From assembly GCF_001717465.1 (NCBI RefSeq), contig NZ_CP017074.1:2928254-2992253 (forward strand): a stretch of DNA of 64,000 bases, given 5' to 3'. How positions within the stretch are numbered: position 1 is the first letter of the stretch; every line of letters starts with the position of its first letter. The notes beneath the pieces are model-generated. The model was not told the origin of the DNA. It did not search any database and saw nothing but the letters and a program-made list of their open reading frames with translations. The DNA comes from Luteimonas sp. JM171. GTDB lineage: Bacteria > Pseudomonadota > Gammaproteobacteria > Xanthomonadales > Xanthomonadaceae. The translations under genes were made by a program, and so were the position numbers. Shown in pieces: positions 17,852 to 24,654 of the stretch.

Positions 17852-20212
17852 ATGCGCAGGTGGGTTCCCCGCATCCTGGTGGTGGCTGCAGCGCTGGCAC
17901 TGCTGGCGCTGGTTGCGGTCTGGCTGCTGCTGCGGGCAAGCCTGCCGGCGCTGGAAGGCGAACACGCCCTGCCGGGCCTGGCGGCGCCGGTGCGGGTGGA
18001 GCGCGATGCGCTCGGGGTAGTCACCATCGAGGCCGGCAGCGCCGGGGACGCGGCGCGTGCGCTTGGCTGGGTGCATGCGCAGGAGCGCTGGTTCGAGATG
18101 GACCTGATGCGGCGCAGCTCGGCCGGCGAGCTCTCGGCGCTGTTCGGCCCGATGGCCCTGGACGCCGACCGCGAACGCCGCCGGCATCGGCTGCGCGCGC
18201 GCATCGGGCAGCGGCTGCCCGAGATCGCCAGCGGGCGCCTGGCCGAACTGGAGGCCTACGCCGAGGGCGCCAACGCCGGGCGCCAGGCGCTGGGCGCGCG
18301 GCCGTGGCCATACCTGCTGCTGCGCGCGCAGCCGGAGCCCTGGGCCCCGGAGGATTCGATCCTGGCGGCCTACGCCATGTATTTCGACCTGCAGGGCGGA
18401 CGCAACGAGCGCGAGCTGCGCTGGTGGCGCATGGCCCCGCACCTGCCGCCGGCGCTGCGCACACTGCTCGGCCACGACGGCTCGGACTGGGACGCACCGC
18501 TGATGGGCGAGGCGCGCGGCGACGCGGTGCTGCCAAGACCGGACGAAGTGGACCTGCGCAGGCTTCCGTTCCCCAGGGACGGTGATGCCACCCCGATGCC
18601 GGAAGCGGGCACGCCCGGCAGCAACAACTTTGCCGTTGGCGGCGCGCTGACCGCGGATGGGCGGGCGATCGTGGCCAACGACATGCACCTTGGGCTGGGC
18701 GTGCCCAACGTCTGGTTCCGCGTCCGCCTGCGCTGGCCCGATCCCAGTGCGCCGGGCGGACAGGTGGATGTCTCCGGCTTCACCCTGCCGGGCGTGCCGG
18801 CGGTGATCGTCGGCAGCAGCGGCAACGTGGCCTGGGGCTTCACCAACAGCTACGGCGATTACATGGACTGGCGGCTCGAGGTGCCATGCGCCGCAGGTAC
18901 CAACGTGGACTGCGAGCCGGTGGAACGGCACGTGGAGCGGATTGCCGTGGCCGGCGGCGACGCCGTGGAGTTCGACATCGAGGAAACCGCCTGGGGGCCG
19001 GTGGTGGAGCGCCTGGACGATGGGCGGGCGCTGGCCCTGCGCTGGGTGGCGCACCTGCCCGGCTCCATCAACCTGGGCCTGGCCGACCTCGCTACCGCGG
19101 CCAATCTGGACCAGGCGCTGGCCGTGGCCGACCGCACCGCGGTGCCCACCCAGAACCTGGTGATTGGCGACCGCGACGGGCGCATTGCCTGGCGCCTGCT
19201 TGGCCCGCTGGCGCGGCGCGATCCGGCATGCCACCGGCTGCCTGTGGATGCCCCGGCGGACGTGCCCCAGCTTCGATGCGCGCCGTGGTCAATCGCCACC
19301 GACCGCTCGCCGGCCGTGATCGATCCGCCGCACCACCGGCTATGGACCGCCAACTCGCGAGTGGTGGGCGGCGAGCCCGAGGCGCTGGTGGGCGACGGCG
19401 GCTATGCGTTCGGCGCCCGGCAGCAGCAGATCCGCGACCTCCTGTTCGCCGGCCGGTCGTACACCGAACAGGACCTGCTCGCCATCCAGCTCGACACCCG
19501 CGCCCTGGTGCTTGACCGCTGGTGGCACCTGCTCAAGGGCCTGCCGCCGCGCGCAGATGCGCCCGCGCTACTGGCGCTGGCGGCAGCTGCCGCGGACTGG
19601 AACGCCCACGCCGACACCGCTTCCTCCGGCTACCGGCTGGTGCGCGCATGGCGCCTGGCGGTGCATGCGCGGATTGCCGATGGCCTGACCGGGCCGGCGC
19701 AGGTGGCGCTGGGCGACGCGTTCCAGATGCCGGACCTGCCGCAGCTGGAGGGGATCGCCTGGCCGCTGGTGCGGCAGCAGCCGCAGCACCTGCTGCCGCC
19801 GCGCTTCGACGACTGGCACGCGCTGTTCGAGGATGCGGCGCGCGAGGTGCGCGACACGCTCGGCGCCCGCGGGCCGCTGGAGGAGCGCACCTGGGGCGAA
19901 CGCAATACTGCGCGCATCTGCCATCCCCTGGCCGACGCGGTGCCGCTGCTGGGCAGGCGCCTGTGCATGCCGGCCGAGCCGCTGCCGGGCGACGGCTTGG
20001 TGCCGCGCGTGCAGGGCCCGTCGTTCGGCGCTTCGCAGCGGATGGTGGTGGCGCCGGGCCACGAGCAGGACGGCATCGCCCACATGCCCGGCGGCCAGAG
20101 CGGCCATCCGCTGTCGCCGTATTGGGGCGCGGGCCACGACGACTGGGTGCACGGGCGCCCCACCCCGTTCCTCCCCGGCCCCGCCGAACGTACGCTGACC
20201 CTCCACCCGTAG
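17852..20212 (+). CDS. Penicillin acylase family Ntn hydrolase
   Basis: 786-residue precursor of the penicillin amidase / acyl-homoserine-lactone acylase superfamily. Residues 1-30 are a membrane anchor or signal sequence (VVAAALALLALVAVWLLL). The chain is expected to cleave itself before Ser257 in TPGSNNFAVGG, giving an alpha subunit and a beta subunit whose N-terminal Ser is the nucleophile. VGSSGNVAWGFTNSYGDYMD follows at the usual distance, and the C-terminal SFGASQRMV and GGQSGHPLSPYW match the family ending. Substrate (a beta-lactam, N-acyl amino acid or AHL) cannot be told from sequence. The chain looks full length. Confidence 0.92.
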   Translation: MRRWVPRILVVAAALALLALVAVWLLLRASLPALEGEHALPGLAAPVRVERDALGVVTIEAGSAGDAARALGWVHAQERWFEMDLMRRSSAGELSALFGPMALDADRERRRHRLRARIGQRLPEIASGRLAELEAYAEGANAGRQALGARPWPYLLLRAQPEPWAPEDSILAAYAMYFDLQGGRNERELRWWRMAPHLPPALRTLLGHDGSDWDAPLMGEARGDAVLPRPDEVDLRRLPFPRDGDATPMPEAGTPGSNNFAVGGALTADGRAIVANDMHLGLGVPNVWFRVRLRWPDPSAPGGQVDVSGFTLPGVPAVIVGSSGNVAWGFTNSYGDYMDWRLEVPCAAGTNVDCEPVERHVERIAVAGGDAVEFDIEETAWGPVVERLDDGRALALRWVAHLPGSINLGLADLATAANLDQALAVADRTAVPTQNLVIGDRDGRIAWRLLGPLARRDPACHRLPVDAPADVPQLRCAPWSIATDRSPAVIDPPHHRLWTANSRVVGGEPEALVGDGGYAFGARQQQIRDLLFAGRSYTEQDLLAIQLDTRALVLDRWWHLLKGLPPRADAPALLALAAAAADWNAHADTASSGYRLVRAWRLAVHARIADGLTGPAQVALGDAFQMPDLPQLEGIAWPLVRQQPQHLLPPRFDDWHALFEDAAREVRDTLGARGPLEERTWGERNTARICHPLADAVPLLGRRLCMPAEPLPGDGLVPRVQGPSFGASQRMVVAPGHEQDGIAHMPGGQSGHPLSPYWGAGHDDWVHGRPTPFLPGPAERTLTLHP

Positions 20213-20255
20213 GTCCGGCCTGCGTGGCCGACGTGTGGGATCCGCAAACGCGGAC

Positions 20256-21944
20256 TCAATACGCGGCGGCGTGGACGCCGGCGACGGCGCGGCCTGACGG
20301 GTCGGCCGAGGCGTCGAAGGCTGCGTCCCAGGCGATCGCGGTGGCGGTGGAACAGGCGATGGACTTGCCGCCGGGCACCGTCTCGGCCGCGGCGCGGGTC
20401 GGGAACGCCTGCTCGAACAGGGTCCGGTACCAGTACGCCTCCTTGCTCGCGGGCGGATTGACCGGGAAGCGCCGGTGCGCGGCGGCGAGCTCGCGATCGC
20501 TCACCTGCGCTTCGGCGTGTGCCTTCAGCCCATCGATCCACCCGTAACCCACGCCGTCGCTGAACTGCTCCTTCTGCCGCCACAGGATCTCCGCCGGCAG
20601 GTAGCCCTCGAAGGCCTGGCGCAGGATGCCCTTCTCCATCCGCTGCGGGCCGTTGGAATGGCGGAGCACCATCTTCTGCGCGGCATCCATGCGCATGGCC
20701 ACGTCCAGGAACTCGATGTCCAGGAACGGCACCCGCGCCTCCACGCCCCAGGCCATCATCGACTTGTTGGCGCGCAGGCAGTCGTAGTTGTGCAGGGCGT
20801 CGAGCTTGCGCACGGTTTCCTCGTGGAACTGGCGCGCATCAGGGGCCTTGTGGAAGTACAGGTAGCCGCCGAAGGTCTCGTCGCTGCCTTCGCCCGAGAG
20901 CACCATCTTCACCCCCATGGCCTTGATCCGCCGCGCCAGCAGGTACATGGGCGTGGAGGCGCGGATGCTGGTGACGTCGTAGGTCTCGATGTGGCGGATG
21001 ACGTCGGGCAGCGCGTCCAGGCCTTCCTGGAAGGTGTATTCGAAGCCGTGGTGGACGGTGTCGAGGGACTGGGCGGCGACCTCGGCGGCCGCCAGGTCCG
21101 GGGAGCCCTGCAGGCCGATGGCAAACGAGTGCAGGCGCGGCCACCAGGCCTCGGAGTTGTCGTTGTCCTCGATGCGGCGGCGGGCGAAGCGGGCGGCCAC
21201 GGCCGCGACCAGCGAGGAATCCAGGCCGCCGGAGAGCAGCACGCCGTAGGGGACGTCGCTCATCAGCTGGCGGTGCACGGCGGCTTCGAAAGCCTCGCGC
21301 AGCTCGTCCGGCGCCACGTGCGTGCCCTGCACGGCATCGTAGTCGCGCCAGGGGCGGTCGTAGTAGCGGCGCAGCTCGCCGGTCGCGCTGTCGTACCAGT
21401 GCCCGGGCGGGAACTGGGCGACGTCGGCGCAGGTGTCCACCAACGCCTTCATCTCCGAGGCCACGCGCAGCCGCCCCTCGCGGTCGTGGCCCCAGTACAG
21501 CGGCACCACGCCGATCGGATCGCGGGCGATGATCGCGCGGCCACGTTCGCTGTCCCACAGGGCGAAGGCGAAGATGCCGTTGAGGCGGTCGAGGAAGGCA
21601 CCGGGCTCGCTTTCGCGGTACAGCGCGTTGATCACCTCGCAGTCCGAACCGGTCTGGAACGCGTAGTCCTTGCGCAGCTCGCCCTTGAGCTCGCGGTGGT
21701 TGTAGATCTCGCCGTTGACGGCGAGTACCAGGCGGCCGTCTTCGGACTTCAGTGGCTGCGAGCCGCCGGCCGGATCGACGATGGCCAGGCGCTCGTGCAC
21801 CAGGATCGCGCCTTCGTCCACGTGCACCCCGCTCCAGTCGGGGCCGCGGTGGCGCTGGCGCGCCGAGCATTCCAGCGCGTGGCGGCGCAGCGCGGCGACG
21901 TCGTCGCCCGGTTGCAGGTCGAAGATGGAGAAGATGGAGCACAT
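20256..21944 (-). CDS. asnB: Asparagine synthase (glutamine-hydrolysing), class B
   Basis: 562-residue enzyme that makes asparagine from aspartate, ATP and glutamine. ATG 21944 is chosen because it leaves Cys2 (MCSIFSIFD) as the N-terminal glutaminase nucleophile; GAGG lies nine bases upstream. The glutaminase domain has RHRGPDWSG and AVNGEIYNH, and the synthetase domain has the pyrophosphate loop LSGGLDSS and LSGEGSDETFGGY. The 240-base upstream region holds an Asn-rich leader ORF and an intrinsic terminator oriented towards asnB, so expression is predicted to be controlled by attenuation in response to Asn-tRNA charging. Last gene after the map-glnD-dapD-spx-dapE run. Confidence 0.96.
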   Translation of the reverse strand: MCSIFSIFDLQPGDDVAALRRHALECSARQRHRGPDWSGVHVDEGAILVHERLAIVDPAGGSQPLKSEDGRLVLAVNGEIYNHRELKGELRKDYAFQTGSDCEVINALYRESEPGAFLDRLNGIFAFALWDSERGRAIIARDPIGVVPLYWGHDREGRLRVASEMKALVDTCADVAQFPPGHWYDSATGELRRYYDRPWRDYDAVQGTHVAPDELREAFEAAVHRQLMSDVPYGVLLSGGLDSSLVAAVAARFARRRIEDNDNSEAWWPRLHSFAIGLQGSPDLAAAEVAAQSLDTVHHGFEYTFQEGLDALPDVIRHIETYDVTSIRASTPMYLLARRIKAMGVKMVLSGEGSDETFGGYLYFHKAPDARQFHEETVRKLDALHNYDCLRANKSMMAWGVEARVPFLDIEFLDVAMRMDAAQKMVLRHSNGPQRMEKGILRQAFEGYLPAEILWRQKEQFSDGVGYGWIDGLKAHAEAQVSDRELAAAHRRFPVNPPASKEAYWYRTLFEQAFPTRAAAETVPGGKSIACSTATAIAWDAAFDASADPSGRAVAGVHAAAY

Positions 21945-22021
21945 GGGGAAGTTTCCTCGGCTATGGGGATAACGCACGGGCTTCCCGGCTCAGGACAGGC
22001 TGCGGACGCTTGGCGGGCAAG

Positions 22022-22053
22022 AAAAAACCCGCATCGGCGGCCGATGCGGGTTT
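22022..22053 (-). terminator. Attenuator terminator upstream of asnB
   Basis: Read on the minus strand: AAACCCGCATCGG, loop CCG, CCGATGCGGGTTT, running into a six-U tract (22027..22022). It is a perfect 13-bp stem. It lies between the leader ORF stop (22083) and the asnB start (21944), so it would stop transcription before asnB. The plus strand has only three Ts after the stem, so the element works mainly in the asnB direction. Confidence 0.9.
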
Positions 22054-22112
22054 CCTGGTGTCCGGGCGTTCTTGTTTCGGTGCTACGCCTGTCCGCCACC
22101 CCGCATCGGCCG
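22038..22112 (-). promoter_or_regulatory. Predicted antiterminator of the asnB leader
   Basis: On the minus strand CGGCCGATGCGGG (22112..22100, inside the leader ORF at codons 24-28) is exactly complementary over 13 bases to CCCGCATCGGCCG (22050..22038), the 5' arm plus loop of the terminator. Forming this pair prevents the terminator. A competing small hairpin, CGGGCG (22130..22125) with CGCCCG (22116..22111), overlaps the end of the antiterminator strand and could hide it after the ribosome has passed, as strands 1:2 do in the trp leader. Confidence 0.8.
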
Positions 22113-22181
22113 GGCGCGATTATTCGCCCGCGCGTTGTTGCGCGGATTGTTGTTCACGGCGGCGGCGTGGAGCTGCGACAT
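22083..22181 (-). CDS. Asparagine-rich leader peptide of asnB
   Basis: 32-codon ORF: ATG at 22181, TAG at 22085..22083, with AGGA seven bases before the ATG. After MSQLHAAAV come NNN, PR, NN, ARA, NN, then RARPMRGGGQA. Seven of 32 codons are Asn (AAC AAC AAT at codons 10-12, AAC AAC at 15-16, AAT AAT at 20-21). Ribosomes short of Asn-tRNA would stall there, leaving the antiterminator strand at 22112..22100 free (fully so for the first two clusters). The ORF contains the antiterminator and is followed after 29 bases by the terminator. The peptide itself probably has no function beyond attenuation. Confidence 0.85.
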   Translation of the reverse strand: MSQLHAAAVNNNPRNNARANNRARPMRGGGQA

Positions 22182-22248
22182 GGCTTCATCCTGCGCCGTT
22201 TCCGGGGGGCATGCAACCACCGCCCGGGCGTGACGATGGCAATCGCTG

Positions 22249-22273
22249 TAGGAGCGCGCCATGCGCGCGCCTA
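22249..22273. repeat. Short palindrome between dapE and the asnB leader
   Basis: TAGGAGCGCGC, spacer CAT, GCGCGCGCCTA: arms of 11 bases with one mismatch, in the style of dispersed palindromic units. On the minus strand it lies 31 bases after the dapE stop and may act as a transcript end or stabiliser. I saw no convincing promoter between it and the leader ORF, so asnB may be read through from dapE or have a weak promoter. Confidence 0.6.
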
Positions 22274-22303
22274 CCCCAAGGGCAGGGAGATGCATTGCAG
22301 GCC

Positions 22304-23428
22304 TTACAGGAGGCGCTGGATCAGGGCCTGGTAGAGATCCGGCAATGCCTCGAGGTCGGCGACGCGAATGTTTTCGTCGACCTGGTGGATGCTGGCGTTG
22401 ACGGGGCCGATCTCGATGCAGTGGGCGCCGAGGGGGGCGATGAAGCGGGCGTCGGAGGTGCCGCCGCCGGTGCTTTCCTCGGGCGGGGCGCCGGCGAAGC
22501 GGGTGAGGACTTCGCGGGCCGCCTGGCGCAACGGGCCTTCGGGGGTGAAGAAGGGTTCGCCGCTGCGGTGCCAGCGCAGGCTGTGGTCGAGGCCGTGGCC
22601 GGCGAGGAGGGATTCGACCTCGGCTTCAAGCCGCTCCGCATTCCAGTTGGGGTTGTAGCGGAGGTTGAAGGTGGCCTTCAGTTCGCCGGGAATGACGTTG
22701 TCGGCGCCTTCGCCGGCGTGGAGGTCGCTGATCTGCAGGCTGGTGGGGGGGAAGGTTTCGTAGCCGTCGTCCCATTTGCGGGCGACCAGTTCGGCGAGTG
22801 CGGCTGCGGCCTGGTGGATGGGGTTGCGGGCTTTTTCGGGATAGGCAACGTGGCCCTGGATGCCGCGGACTGTGAGGTGGCCGGTGAGCGAGCCGCGGCG
22901 GCCGACGCGCATGAGGTCGCCGAGTTTCTCCTGCGAGGAGGGCTCGCCGGTGATGCAACAGTCGATGCGCTGGCCACGCTGGCGGAAGGTGTCGGCCACG
23001 CGGCGCACGCCGTCGATGGCGTCGCCCTCCTCGTCCGAGGTCAGCAGCAGGGCCAGGGTGCCCTTGTGGTCGGGCTTGGCGGCGACGAAGCGTTCGGCGG
23101 CGACGACGAAGGCGGCAACGCCGCTCTTCATGTCCGCGGCGCCGCGGCCGTAGAGCACGCCGTCGCGGACCTCGGGCTGGAAAGGATCGCTGGTCCAGGC
23201 CTCGCGCGGGCCGGGCGGGACGACATCGGTGTGACCGAGCAGGACCAGCACCGGGCCGCCTTCGCCGTGGGTGGCCCAGAGGTTGTCGACCTCGCCGTAG
23301 CGCAGGTGTTCGCAGGTGAAGCCTGCGCGTTCCAGGCGCTGGGCGATCAGCGGTTGGCAGCCGGCGTCGTCTGGCGTCACCGAGGGTCGCGAGATGAGTT
23401 CCTGCAGGAGATCGAGGACTTCGGACAT
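22304..23428 (-). CDS. dapE: Succinyl-diaminopimelate desuccinylase
   Basis: 374-residue M20-family zinc hydrolase that removes succinate from N-succinyl-LL-diaminopimelate in the lysine/peptidoglycan branch. Metal-site motifs: [35 protein letters not shown] (catalytic Glu) and GGGTSDARF, with [15 protein letters not shown] near the end. It follows dapD and a Spx-like gene with single-base gaps, so it is probably in one operon with them. Confidence 0.97.
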
Positions 23429-23429
23429 A

Positions 23430-23786
23430 TCAGGAGACGCCGAAGCGCTTCTTGAAGCCGTTGTCGGAAAAGCCCTGGCTCATTTCCCCATCATCGGTCA
23501 CCACCACCGGGCGTCGGATCAGCTGCGGGTATTCGCGCAGCAGGAGCTTCCACTCGGCGTCGCTGGCGGCGGCCTTGCGGTTGTCGGGGAGCTGGCGCCA
23601 GGTGGTGGAGGACTTGTTGACCATCTTCTCGAAGCCGCCGAGCTTGCCGGCCCACTCCACCAGCATTTCCGGCGTGGGCTTGTCGTCGCGGTAGTCGACG
23701 AATTCGTGTTCGATGCCGAATCGGTCCAGCCACTTGCGCGCCTTGCGGCAGGTGTCACAGTTCTTCAGTCCGTAGATCGTGGTCAT
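23430..23786 (-). CDS. ArsC/Spx-like thioredoxin-fold protein (YffB family)
   Basis: 118-residue protein with the ArsC-like fold: [18 protein letters not shown] with a CxxC pair (Cys10, Cys13), [11 protein letters not shown] and [11 protein letters not shown]. This is the YffB subgroup, small reductase-like proteins of unsettled function that regularly sit between dapD and dapE, as here. ATG 23786 begins the conserved sequence; single-base gaps to dapD and dapE imply translational coupling. Not a true arsenate reductase by context. Confidence 0.9.
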
Positions 23787-23787
23787 G

Positions 23788-24654
<867 letters not shown>

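Follow-up and report, generated by a model that had tools for sequence, protein, structure and literature searches.

Upstream of asnB, the gene of a glutamine-hydrolysing asparagine synthase, there very probably lies a ribosome-mediated transcription attenuator that would sense the charging of tRNA-Asn and control this gene. The region belongs to a 64,000-nucleotide stretch of the Luteimonas sp. JM171 genome (GCF_001717465.1, contig NZ_CP017074.1, positions 2,928,254 to 2,992,253 of the forward strand), which is called the window throughout and whose numbering is used for coordinates given without a contig. Control of asnB through the asparagine (Asn) codons of a leader had been proposed in the original prediction, made from the letters of this DNA; the Asn clusters, the terminator and the complementary strand found in relatives support that interpretation, with one amendment, namely a probable leaderless start. 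The model follows ribosome-mediated attenuation as laid out in the available part of PMC1183508. Transcription would begin on the AUG of a short, Asn-rich open reading frame (ORF) or directly beside it, and a ribosome would load on the leaderless RNA. When Asn-tRNA is plentiful, the ribosome would cross the antiterminator strand and finish the ORF, the terminator would fold and transcription would stop near 22022. When Asn-tRNA is scarce, the ribosome would stall in the Asn clusters and 22112..22100 would pair with the terminator 5' arm as soon as this is made; the antiterminator so formed would block the terminator and asnB would be transcribed. The stalling, the read-through and the response to asparagine are what we infer from the arrangement of the following parts.

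20256..21944, minus strand: asnB, glutamine-hydrolysing asparagine synthase B of 562 amino acids (NF006949, 874 bits, cut-off 499), the regulated gene in the attenuator model.
21953..21958, minus strand: Shine-Dalgarno element GAGGAA of asnB, as read from the sequence.
22022..22037, minus strand: strand 4, the terminator 3' arm (22037..22025) with the U run (22027..22022), from sequence and hairpin.
22038..22053, minus strand: strand 3, the terminator 5' arm (22053..22041) with the loop (22040..22038), which doubles as the putative antiterminator 3' strand (22050..22038), from the hairpin, the complementarity and the strand pairing.
22083..22181, minus strand: leader ORF of 32 codons and a stop with 7 Asn codons, predicted to be leaderless with the first transcribed base being the A of the ATG, from sequence, conservation and promoter arrangement.
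22100..22112, minus strand: strand 2, the putative antiterminator 5' strand within the ORF, a 13-nucleotide (nt) complement of 22050..22038 with conserved, co-varying columns.
22119..22124, minus strand: Asn codons 20-21, from the sequence.
22134..22139, minus strand: Asn codons 15-16, from the sequence.
22146..22154, minus strand: Asn codons 10-12, from the sequence.
22188..22193, minus strand: predicted -10 element CAGGAT, with a 17-nt spacer to the -35 element and 6 nt ahead of the ATG, from the alignment and the strict promoter count by frame.
22211..22216, minus strand: -35 element TTGCAT in the promoter predicted for the leader (TTGC is found here in 125/128 scored regions; alignment of 23 regions).

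The leader ORF, MSQLHAAAVNNNPRNNARANNRARPMRGGGQA, runs from an ATG at 22181 to a TAG at 22085..22083. Its 32 codons with seven Asn codons at positions 10-12, 15-16 and 20-21 are present as first described, and such a content is beyond chance, the probability of at least 7 Asn in 32 codons being 2.3e-6 at the Asn usage of 1.94% seen in the codons of five window genes. Of the 1206 frames of 20-60 codons that can be read in the window from a start to a stop, 4 reach seven Asn, all of them nested starts of the leader frame, and the next best has five. Of 7 occurrences of the motif AAYAAYN{3,9}AAYAAY across the 2.99-Mb genome, two are at the leader. The leader frame stays open further upstream, where an ATG is found at 22295, so 22181 was chosen as the start on the strength of conservation and of the predicted promoter.

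The ORF is followed by the terminator, in which AAACCCGCATCGG (22053..22041), the loop CCG (22040..22038) and CCGATGCGGGTTT (22037..22025) make up a hairpin of 13 base pairs (bp). The 58-nt stretch around it folds with -27 kcal/mol (z -4.1), and none of 200 shuffles was equally good; a generic consensus terminator scan did not have the window hairpin among its minus-strand results. A perfect 13-bp hairpin followed by six Us had been claimed, and the hairpin stood, with three of the six Us belonging to the 3' arm and hence counted twice. The claim that the 13 nt of 22112..22100 are exactly complementary to 22050..22038 was confirmed. This strand begins 6 nt past the last Asn codon and in the window ends 14 nt ahead of the stop (median 7 nt over 125 regions of the comparison described below).

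The comparison started from 152 asnB upstream regions (the window, 43 from named contigs, L004-L046 of 80 loci, and 108 from other genomes of the order), which were reduced to 145 by removal of 7 duplicates; L117 was left out. A test for conserved Asn-rich ORFs in relatives including Lysobacter, Luteimonas, Xanthomonas and Stenotrophomonas had been suggested, and they were found: 112/145 distinct regions have 5 or more Asn codons within an open stretch of 14 codons. In 110 of these 112 the Asn count was unmatched by any of 200 dinucleotide shuffles each, the exceptions being L134 (one shuffle) and L170 (four). For the downstream parts 129 regions were retained, that is 124 with at least 4 Asn in 14 codons and five with 3 Asn (L014, L023, L109, L172, L176) that were added by hand. 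Past the ORF stop, 127/129 have a hairpin accompanied by 4 or more T in 8 bases; L020 and L022 fail this rule, and L169, whose hairpin is different and poorer, was excluded from the strand comparisons, which cover 126 regions. Genera that have the Asn clusters, the terminator and the complementary strand are Xanthomonas, Stenotrophomonas, Pseudoxanthomonas, Luteimonas, Lysobacter, Thermomonas, Arenimonas, Rhodanobacter, Dyella, Fulvimonas, Frateuria and others. The ORF, its codons, the terminator, the complementarity and their conservation can all be read directly in these sequences.

A simpler explanation would be that the hairpin is the plain terminator of the upstream gene dapE and that the Asn-rich ORF arose by chance. 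The gene order on the minus strand is glnD, dapD, an arsC/spx-like gene, dapE, a gap of 359 bp (22303..21945) and asnB with its ATG at 21944; the gap houses the leader ORF and then the terminator. This explanation has some ground, for dapE has its end at 22304 on the strand of asnB and the hairpin makes a good terminator. However, the upstream neighbour of asnB varies, a dapE motif being found at 21 of 67 loci (window excluded; 2 of the 67 too short to judge), and the leader element stays with asnB where the neighbour differs. Asn codons, ORF and predicted promoter are conserved, and a strand of the ORF matches the terminator arm. A chance ORF before a dapE terminator was rejected on the Asn clustering against shuffles, the rarity of the motif in the genome, the change of neighbours and the comparison with other window ORFs, and it is considered highly improbable.

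A covariance model of the leader was built from 24 sequences and 200 genomes of the order were scanned with it. It gave 27 strong matches (E < 1e-13), one per genome and all just upstream of asnB, several of which are the model's own sequences. These matches bear on a further explanation, in which the ORF would encode a peptide with an independent role, or the attenuated RNA would work in trans, and the terminator would do no more than close a small mRNA. Attenuator products with roles in trans do exist, such as the trpL RNA and peptide of Sinorhizobium meliloti in the available part of PMC7298713, and the leader ORF has its own predicted promoter. Against this, the strong matches are confined to asnB, the peptide varies from 20 to 45 codons across 125 regions, and its sequence is variable outside the Asn clusters and the stretch that encodes strand 2. 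A known peptide family was rejected, with no Pfam or NCBIfam match for the four leaders tried. As a replacement for attenuation this explanation is very unlikely; in addition to attenuation, a function of the peptide or in trans could exist. Weaker matches of the model lie away from asnB, among the matches listed (G054:C1:112851-113023 at 6.2e-9, G002:C4:114825-114950 at 4.3e-8 and others); in G054 the match away from asnB outscores that genome's own asnB leader (2.7e-8). They are probably similar terminators.

Covarying pairs of terminator and antiterminator strands had been suggested as a check of the attenuator, and such pairs were found. With strands 2, 3 and 4 registered in the 126 regions, the core columns 0 to +4 of strands 2 and 3 pair in 120-124 of them. 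At column -1 a C-G pair is seen in 70 regions and T-A in 30, at column +5 G-C in 47 and T-A in 45, and at the core column +2 G-C in 117 and A-T in 3. Pairing is preserved by GCAGGCC/GGCCTGC in L032 and L134 versus GCGGGCC/GGCCCGC in others. When each strand 2 was matched with its own strand 3 the mean complementarity score was 25.4, and 5000 random re-pairings gave a mean of 20.8 (standard deviation 0.41, maximum 22.3). In the window itself, the strand match was reached by 0/500 codon-order shuffles and by 2.8% of synonymous recodings.

The next question is where transcription of the leader would begin. In an alignment of 23 upstream regions, TTGCGC-like and TANNNT-like elements stand 17-18 nt apart and end 6-7 nt before the conserved ATG. 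Promoters were scored in 128 regions, which leave out L131, where no start codon was found in frame. With the best in-frame start, a spacer of 17 or 18 and a gap of 6 or 7 were obtained in 118/128 and TTGC in 125/128. A predicted promoter precedes 116/128 leader starts versus 7/2059 other starts, a comparison biased towards the leader starts because these had been chosen by promoter score. The comparison was repeated free of that choice by a count in each frame, and the strict promoter arrangement before a start was then seen in the ORF frame in 119/128 regions and in the other two frames, over an identical span, in 2 and 1. With a normal distance from the -10 element to +1, the arrangement TTGCAT-N17-CAGGAT-N6 of the window would have transcription begin on the A of the ATG, at 22181; a generic sigma-70 promoter scan of 19500..24500 found no promoter. 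A start of transcription downstream of 22022 would have counted against the attenuator, and the predicted start lies upstream of the terminator. Given the conserved predicted promoter ending 6-7 nt before the ATG, transcription should start at the AUG, and the leader RNA is therefore probably leaderless and translated without a start driven by a Shine-Dalgarno element. A 4-mer resembling such an element is present at 22/128 leader starts (16 of these are part of a CAGGAT -10 such as the window has) versus 122/128 asnB starts. The ribosome site ascribed earlier to the leader ORF reads differently after the alignment and the scoring: its AGGA sits inside the predicted -10 element CAGGAT and is probably part of the promoter. 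AGGA could still serve the ribosome if transcription began further upstream.

The folding expected at each ribosome position was predicted for the RNA downstream of the ribosome at a time when strand 4 is still missing, and whatever lies upstream of the ribosome was treated as unavailable. In the window the antiterminator is predicted to fold for stalls at codons 10, 12, 15, 16, 20 and 21 (at the last of these with 10 of 13 nt) and not to fold with the ribosome at the stop. Across 125 regions, with an antiterminator called when at least 60% of strand 2 is paired to strand 3, it appears in 119 for a stall at the first Asn, 121 at the middle, 95 at the last and 0 at the stop, this zero being so by construction because the RNA behind the ribosome was left out. 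Once strand 4 is present, the window at a codon-10 stall has -54.2 for the enforced antiterminator versus -56.6, and the antiterminator remains the best fold for stalls at codons 12 and 20. The two folds being so close in energy once strand 4 is made, the switch would depend largely on the order of folding. A naked leader pairs strands 2 and 3 before strand 4 in 104/125 regions, the window included, and no protector hairpin (strands 1 and 2, as in trp) is dominant in the predicted folds. With no dominant protector an untranslated leader is predicted to read through, so that in the folding model read-through is the default without a translating ribosome. A protector hairpin is a feature of the trp design and is not taken as required of ribosome-mediated attenuators. 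An ORF with clustered Asn codons before asnB, an intrinsic terminator and a competing antiterminator exposed on modelled stalling, as expected of an attenuator, were found in the sequence and its folding.

Several observations weigh against the attenuator and have to be set beside this support. Twelve regions have exactly 4 Asn in 14 codons, a count that some shuffles equalled in ten of them, and 21/145 regions have fewer than 4; these 21 comprise 15 loci of outgroups or other families, the lineage of L129 without a leader and five regions of the same anatomy with 3 Asn. The register of the strands was picked for best pairing, and the flanks pair poorly, columns -4 to -2 in just 17, 51 and 55 of 126 regions and columns +6 to +8 in 66, 72 and 80. 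The partner-swap test ignores descent, for which reason a tree of 66 AsnB sequences was built. Over 28 independent pairs from this tree the own partner was better in 11.8 on average and the swapped one in 3.0, with 13.2 ties (median p 0.035, range 0.035-0.057), so that own partners still beat re-paired ones when descent is considered, and the sequences lend the strand pairing modest support. Tree tests of single columns were underpowered, with too few independent contrasts. The excess over synonymous recodings is moderate, with 49/126 regions under 0.05, and 76/126 are so for codon-order shuffling. Finally, a ribosome parked at the stop would mask strand 2 just partly in the window because this strand ends 14 nt before the stop.

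The limits of the leader's distribution are seen in more distant loci. In none of eleven loci from family f9 (L182-L192) does the count exceed 3 Asn in 14 codons. Among 30 more distant AsnB loci, 28 have at most 3 and two (L196, L198) have 4, a tally that includes a misplaced reading for L224, which at the right start has 3. Inspection of 38 loci (L045, L047-L083) revealed no such architecture; several AT-rich ones carry short ORFs with at least 3 Asn. At L198 (genome G082, family f7, AsnB 64% identical) asnB is preceded by TTGACA-N17-GATAGT, a 22-codon ORF, MFAIYNTINTTNNRLLRSAGSF, and a hairpin that leads into a long run of T. From its sequence this may be a separate Asn attenuator; it would not be leaderless because its -10 lies 25 nt before the ATG, and no second genome of its genus was present among the genomes compared.

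Closer to the window, single loci depart from the common plan. Upstream of asnB in L020 and L022, a strong hairpin (AAACCCGCGCCGAAAGCGCGGGTTT) comes after Asn-rich ORFs, but its T run is interrupted, and termination may differ there. L129 (genome G280, of the window's own family f1) has asnB without a leader, its upstream region closing with CCCCAGT repeats that look like a replacement of the attenuator; L131, which shares its genus code (g15), retains a leader-like frame and a hairpin. In L019, L025 and L042, whose records are labelled Holophagales, Rhodococcus and Deltaproteobacteria, AsnB is 75-80% identical to that of the window and the leader is absent, which points either to transfer without the attenuator or to misplaced contigs.

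A terminator and an antiterminator before an amino-acid gene would also fit a T-box or another ligand-binding riboswitch with an ORF beside it by chance. Asn T-boxes occur in Firmicutes upstream of Asn genes; like the asnB leader in the present model they sense the charging of Asn-tRNA, and they differ in binding uncharged tRNA directly, without translation. What is conserved before asnB, however, are codons and simple complementary strands. An Rfam search of the window at gathering thresholds yields a tRNA alone, and a relaxed search of 21900..22320 gave 11 matches to E 5, no T-box among them and all below gathering scores. A T-box or other Rfam element was rejected on these searches, and RF02424, which matches on the plus strand with 27.7 bits where the threshold is 70, was disregarded. 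This explanation is regarded as highly improbable.

Among known systems, the trp, his, leu, thr, ilv and phe leaders of E. coli and Salmonella resemble the asnB leader in having a short ORF rich in codons of the product, an intrinsic terminator and an antiterminator that excludes it, all before a biosynthetic gene. The asnB leader differs in the use of Asn and in three points of design: the putative antiterminator strand is seen within the ORF, the start is predicted to be leaderless, and no dominant protector hairpin is predicted. Mycobacteria reportedly possess poly-Cys leaderless short ORFs that are called attenuators (by title, in the work of Canestrari et al. from 2020); compared by title alone, they share runs of one residue with the asnB leader, the residue being Cys and not Asn. 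Leader ORFs starting at the RNA 5' end before amino-acid genes are described for Streptomyces lividans (LeuL1, LeuL2, TrpL1, IlvL, ThrL and others) in the main text of PMC8079986, in which asparagine does not occur; the leaderless ORF is common to both, as a prediction for asnB, and the amino acids and the phylum are others. The attenuator RNA of S. meliloti trpL (rnTrpL) has its 5' end at the ATG of the leader ORF, as stated in the available part of PMC7298713. It has the RNA start at the ATG in common with the asnB leader, where this is predicted, and differs in serving Trp, in belonging to Alphaproteobacteria and in its demonstrated roles in trans.

The Rfam models Thr_leader and Leu_leader score 14.2 and 13.9 bits on the asnB leader (thresholds 55 and 50), and Rfam 15 has no family matching it. 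An Asn leader attenuator of asnB was not found in the full-text literature among the matches listed, subscription papers and supplements being outside this scope; asparagine terms do not occur in the available text of PMC1262725 and PMC4833913, and 'asparagin' is absent from the main text of PMC2965389. As the working principle is that of textbooks, with no Rfam family and no described Asn leader found, the element is best seen as a known kind of attenuator with a new amino acid. The chances are evenly balanced that it stands for a new class of attenuators of Asn-tRNA charge across Lysobacteraceae and Rhodanobacteraceae, one with leaderless mRNA, a coding antiterminator, no protector and read-through as the default, the reverse of trp.

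The genome offers a setting in which such control would make sense. Full-length asnB was found in a single copy (genome search, E <= 0.001), no asnA was found in the genome, and asnS is above the cut-off in 58/60 genomes of the family, this one among them. With one full-length asnB, no asnA found and AsnRS present, charged tRNA-Asn should track free asparagine, of which asnB would be the main source. A second, distant AsnB-like frame of 670 codons lies outside the window (G000:C1:2171441-2172529, plus strand; L002/L003), with 37-45% identity in two pieces. In a wider search of the class, AsnB at E <= 1e-100 was found in 7/370 genomes, four of the seven being Lysobacteraceae, this genome included. 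The name AsnB2 (XCV1533) is used for a Xanthomonas protein in the available part of PMC3771888. On the plus strand of the window, a gene of 786 amino acids convergent with asnB (17852..20212) weakly matches a PvdQ-type acylase model (25 bits, cut-off 950).

If the attenuator is real, asparagine would join the amino acids under leader-peptide attenuation, and the control of the apparent sole asparagine synthetase of this genome would be explained, in a large group to which Xanthomonas and Stenotrophomonas belong. The leaderless design would let ribosome and polymerase begin nearly together. The predicted read-through default bears on how far attenuators need a protector hairpin, and an antiterminator placed within codons would put one stretch of RNA under the simultaneous constraint of coding and pairing.

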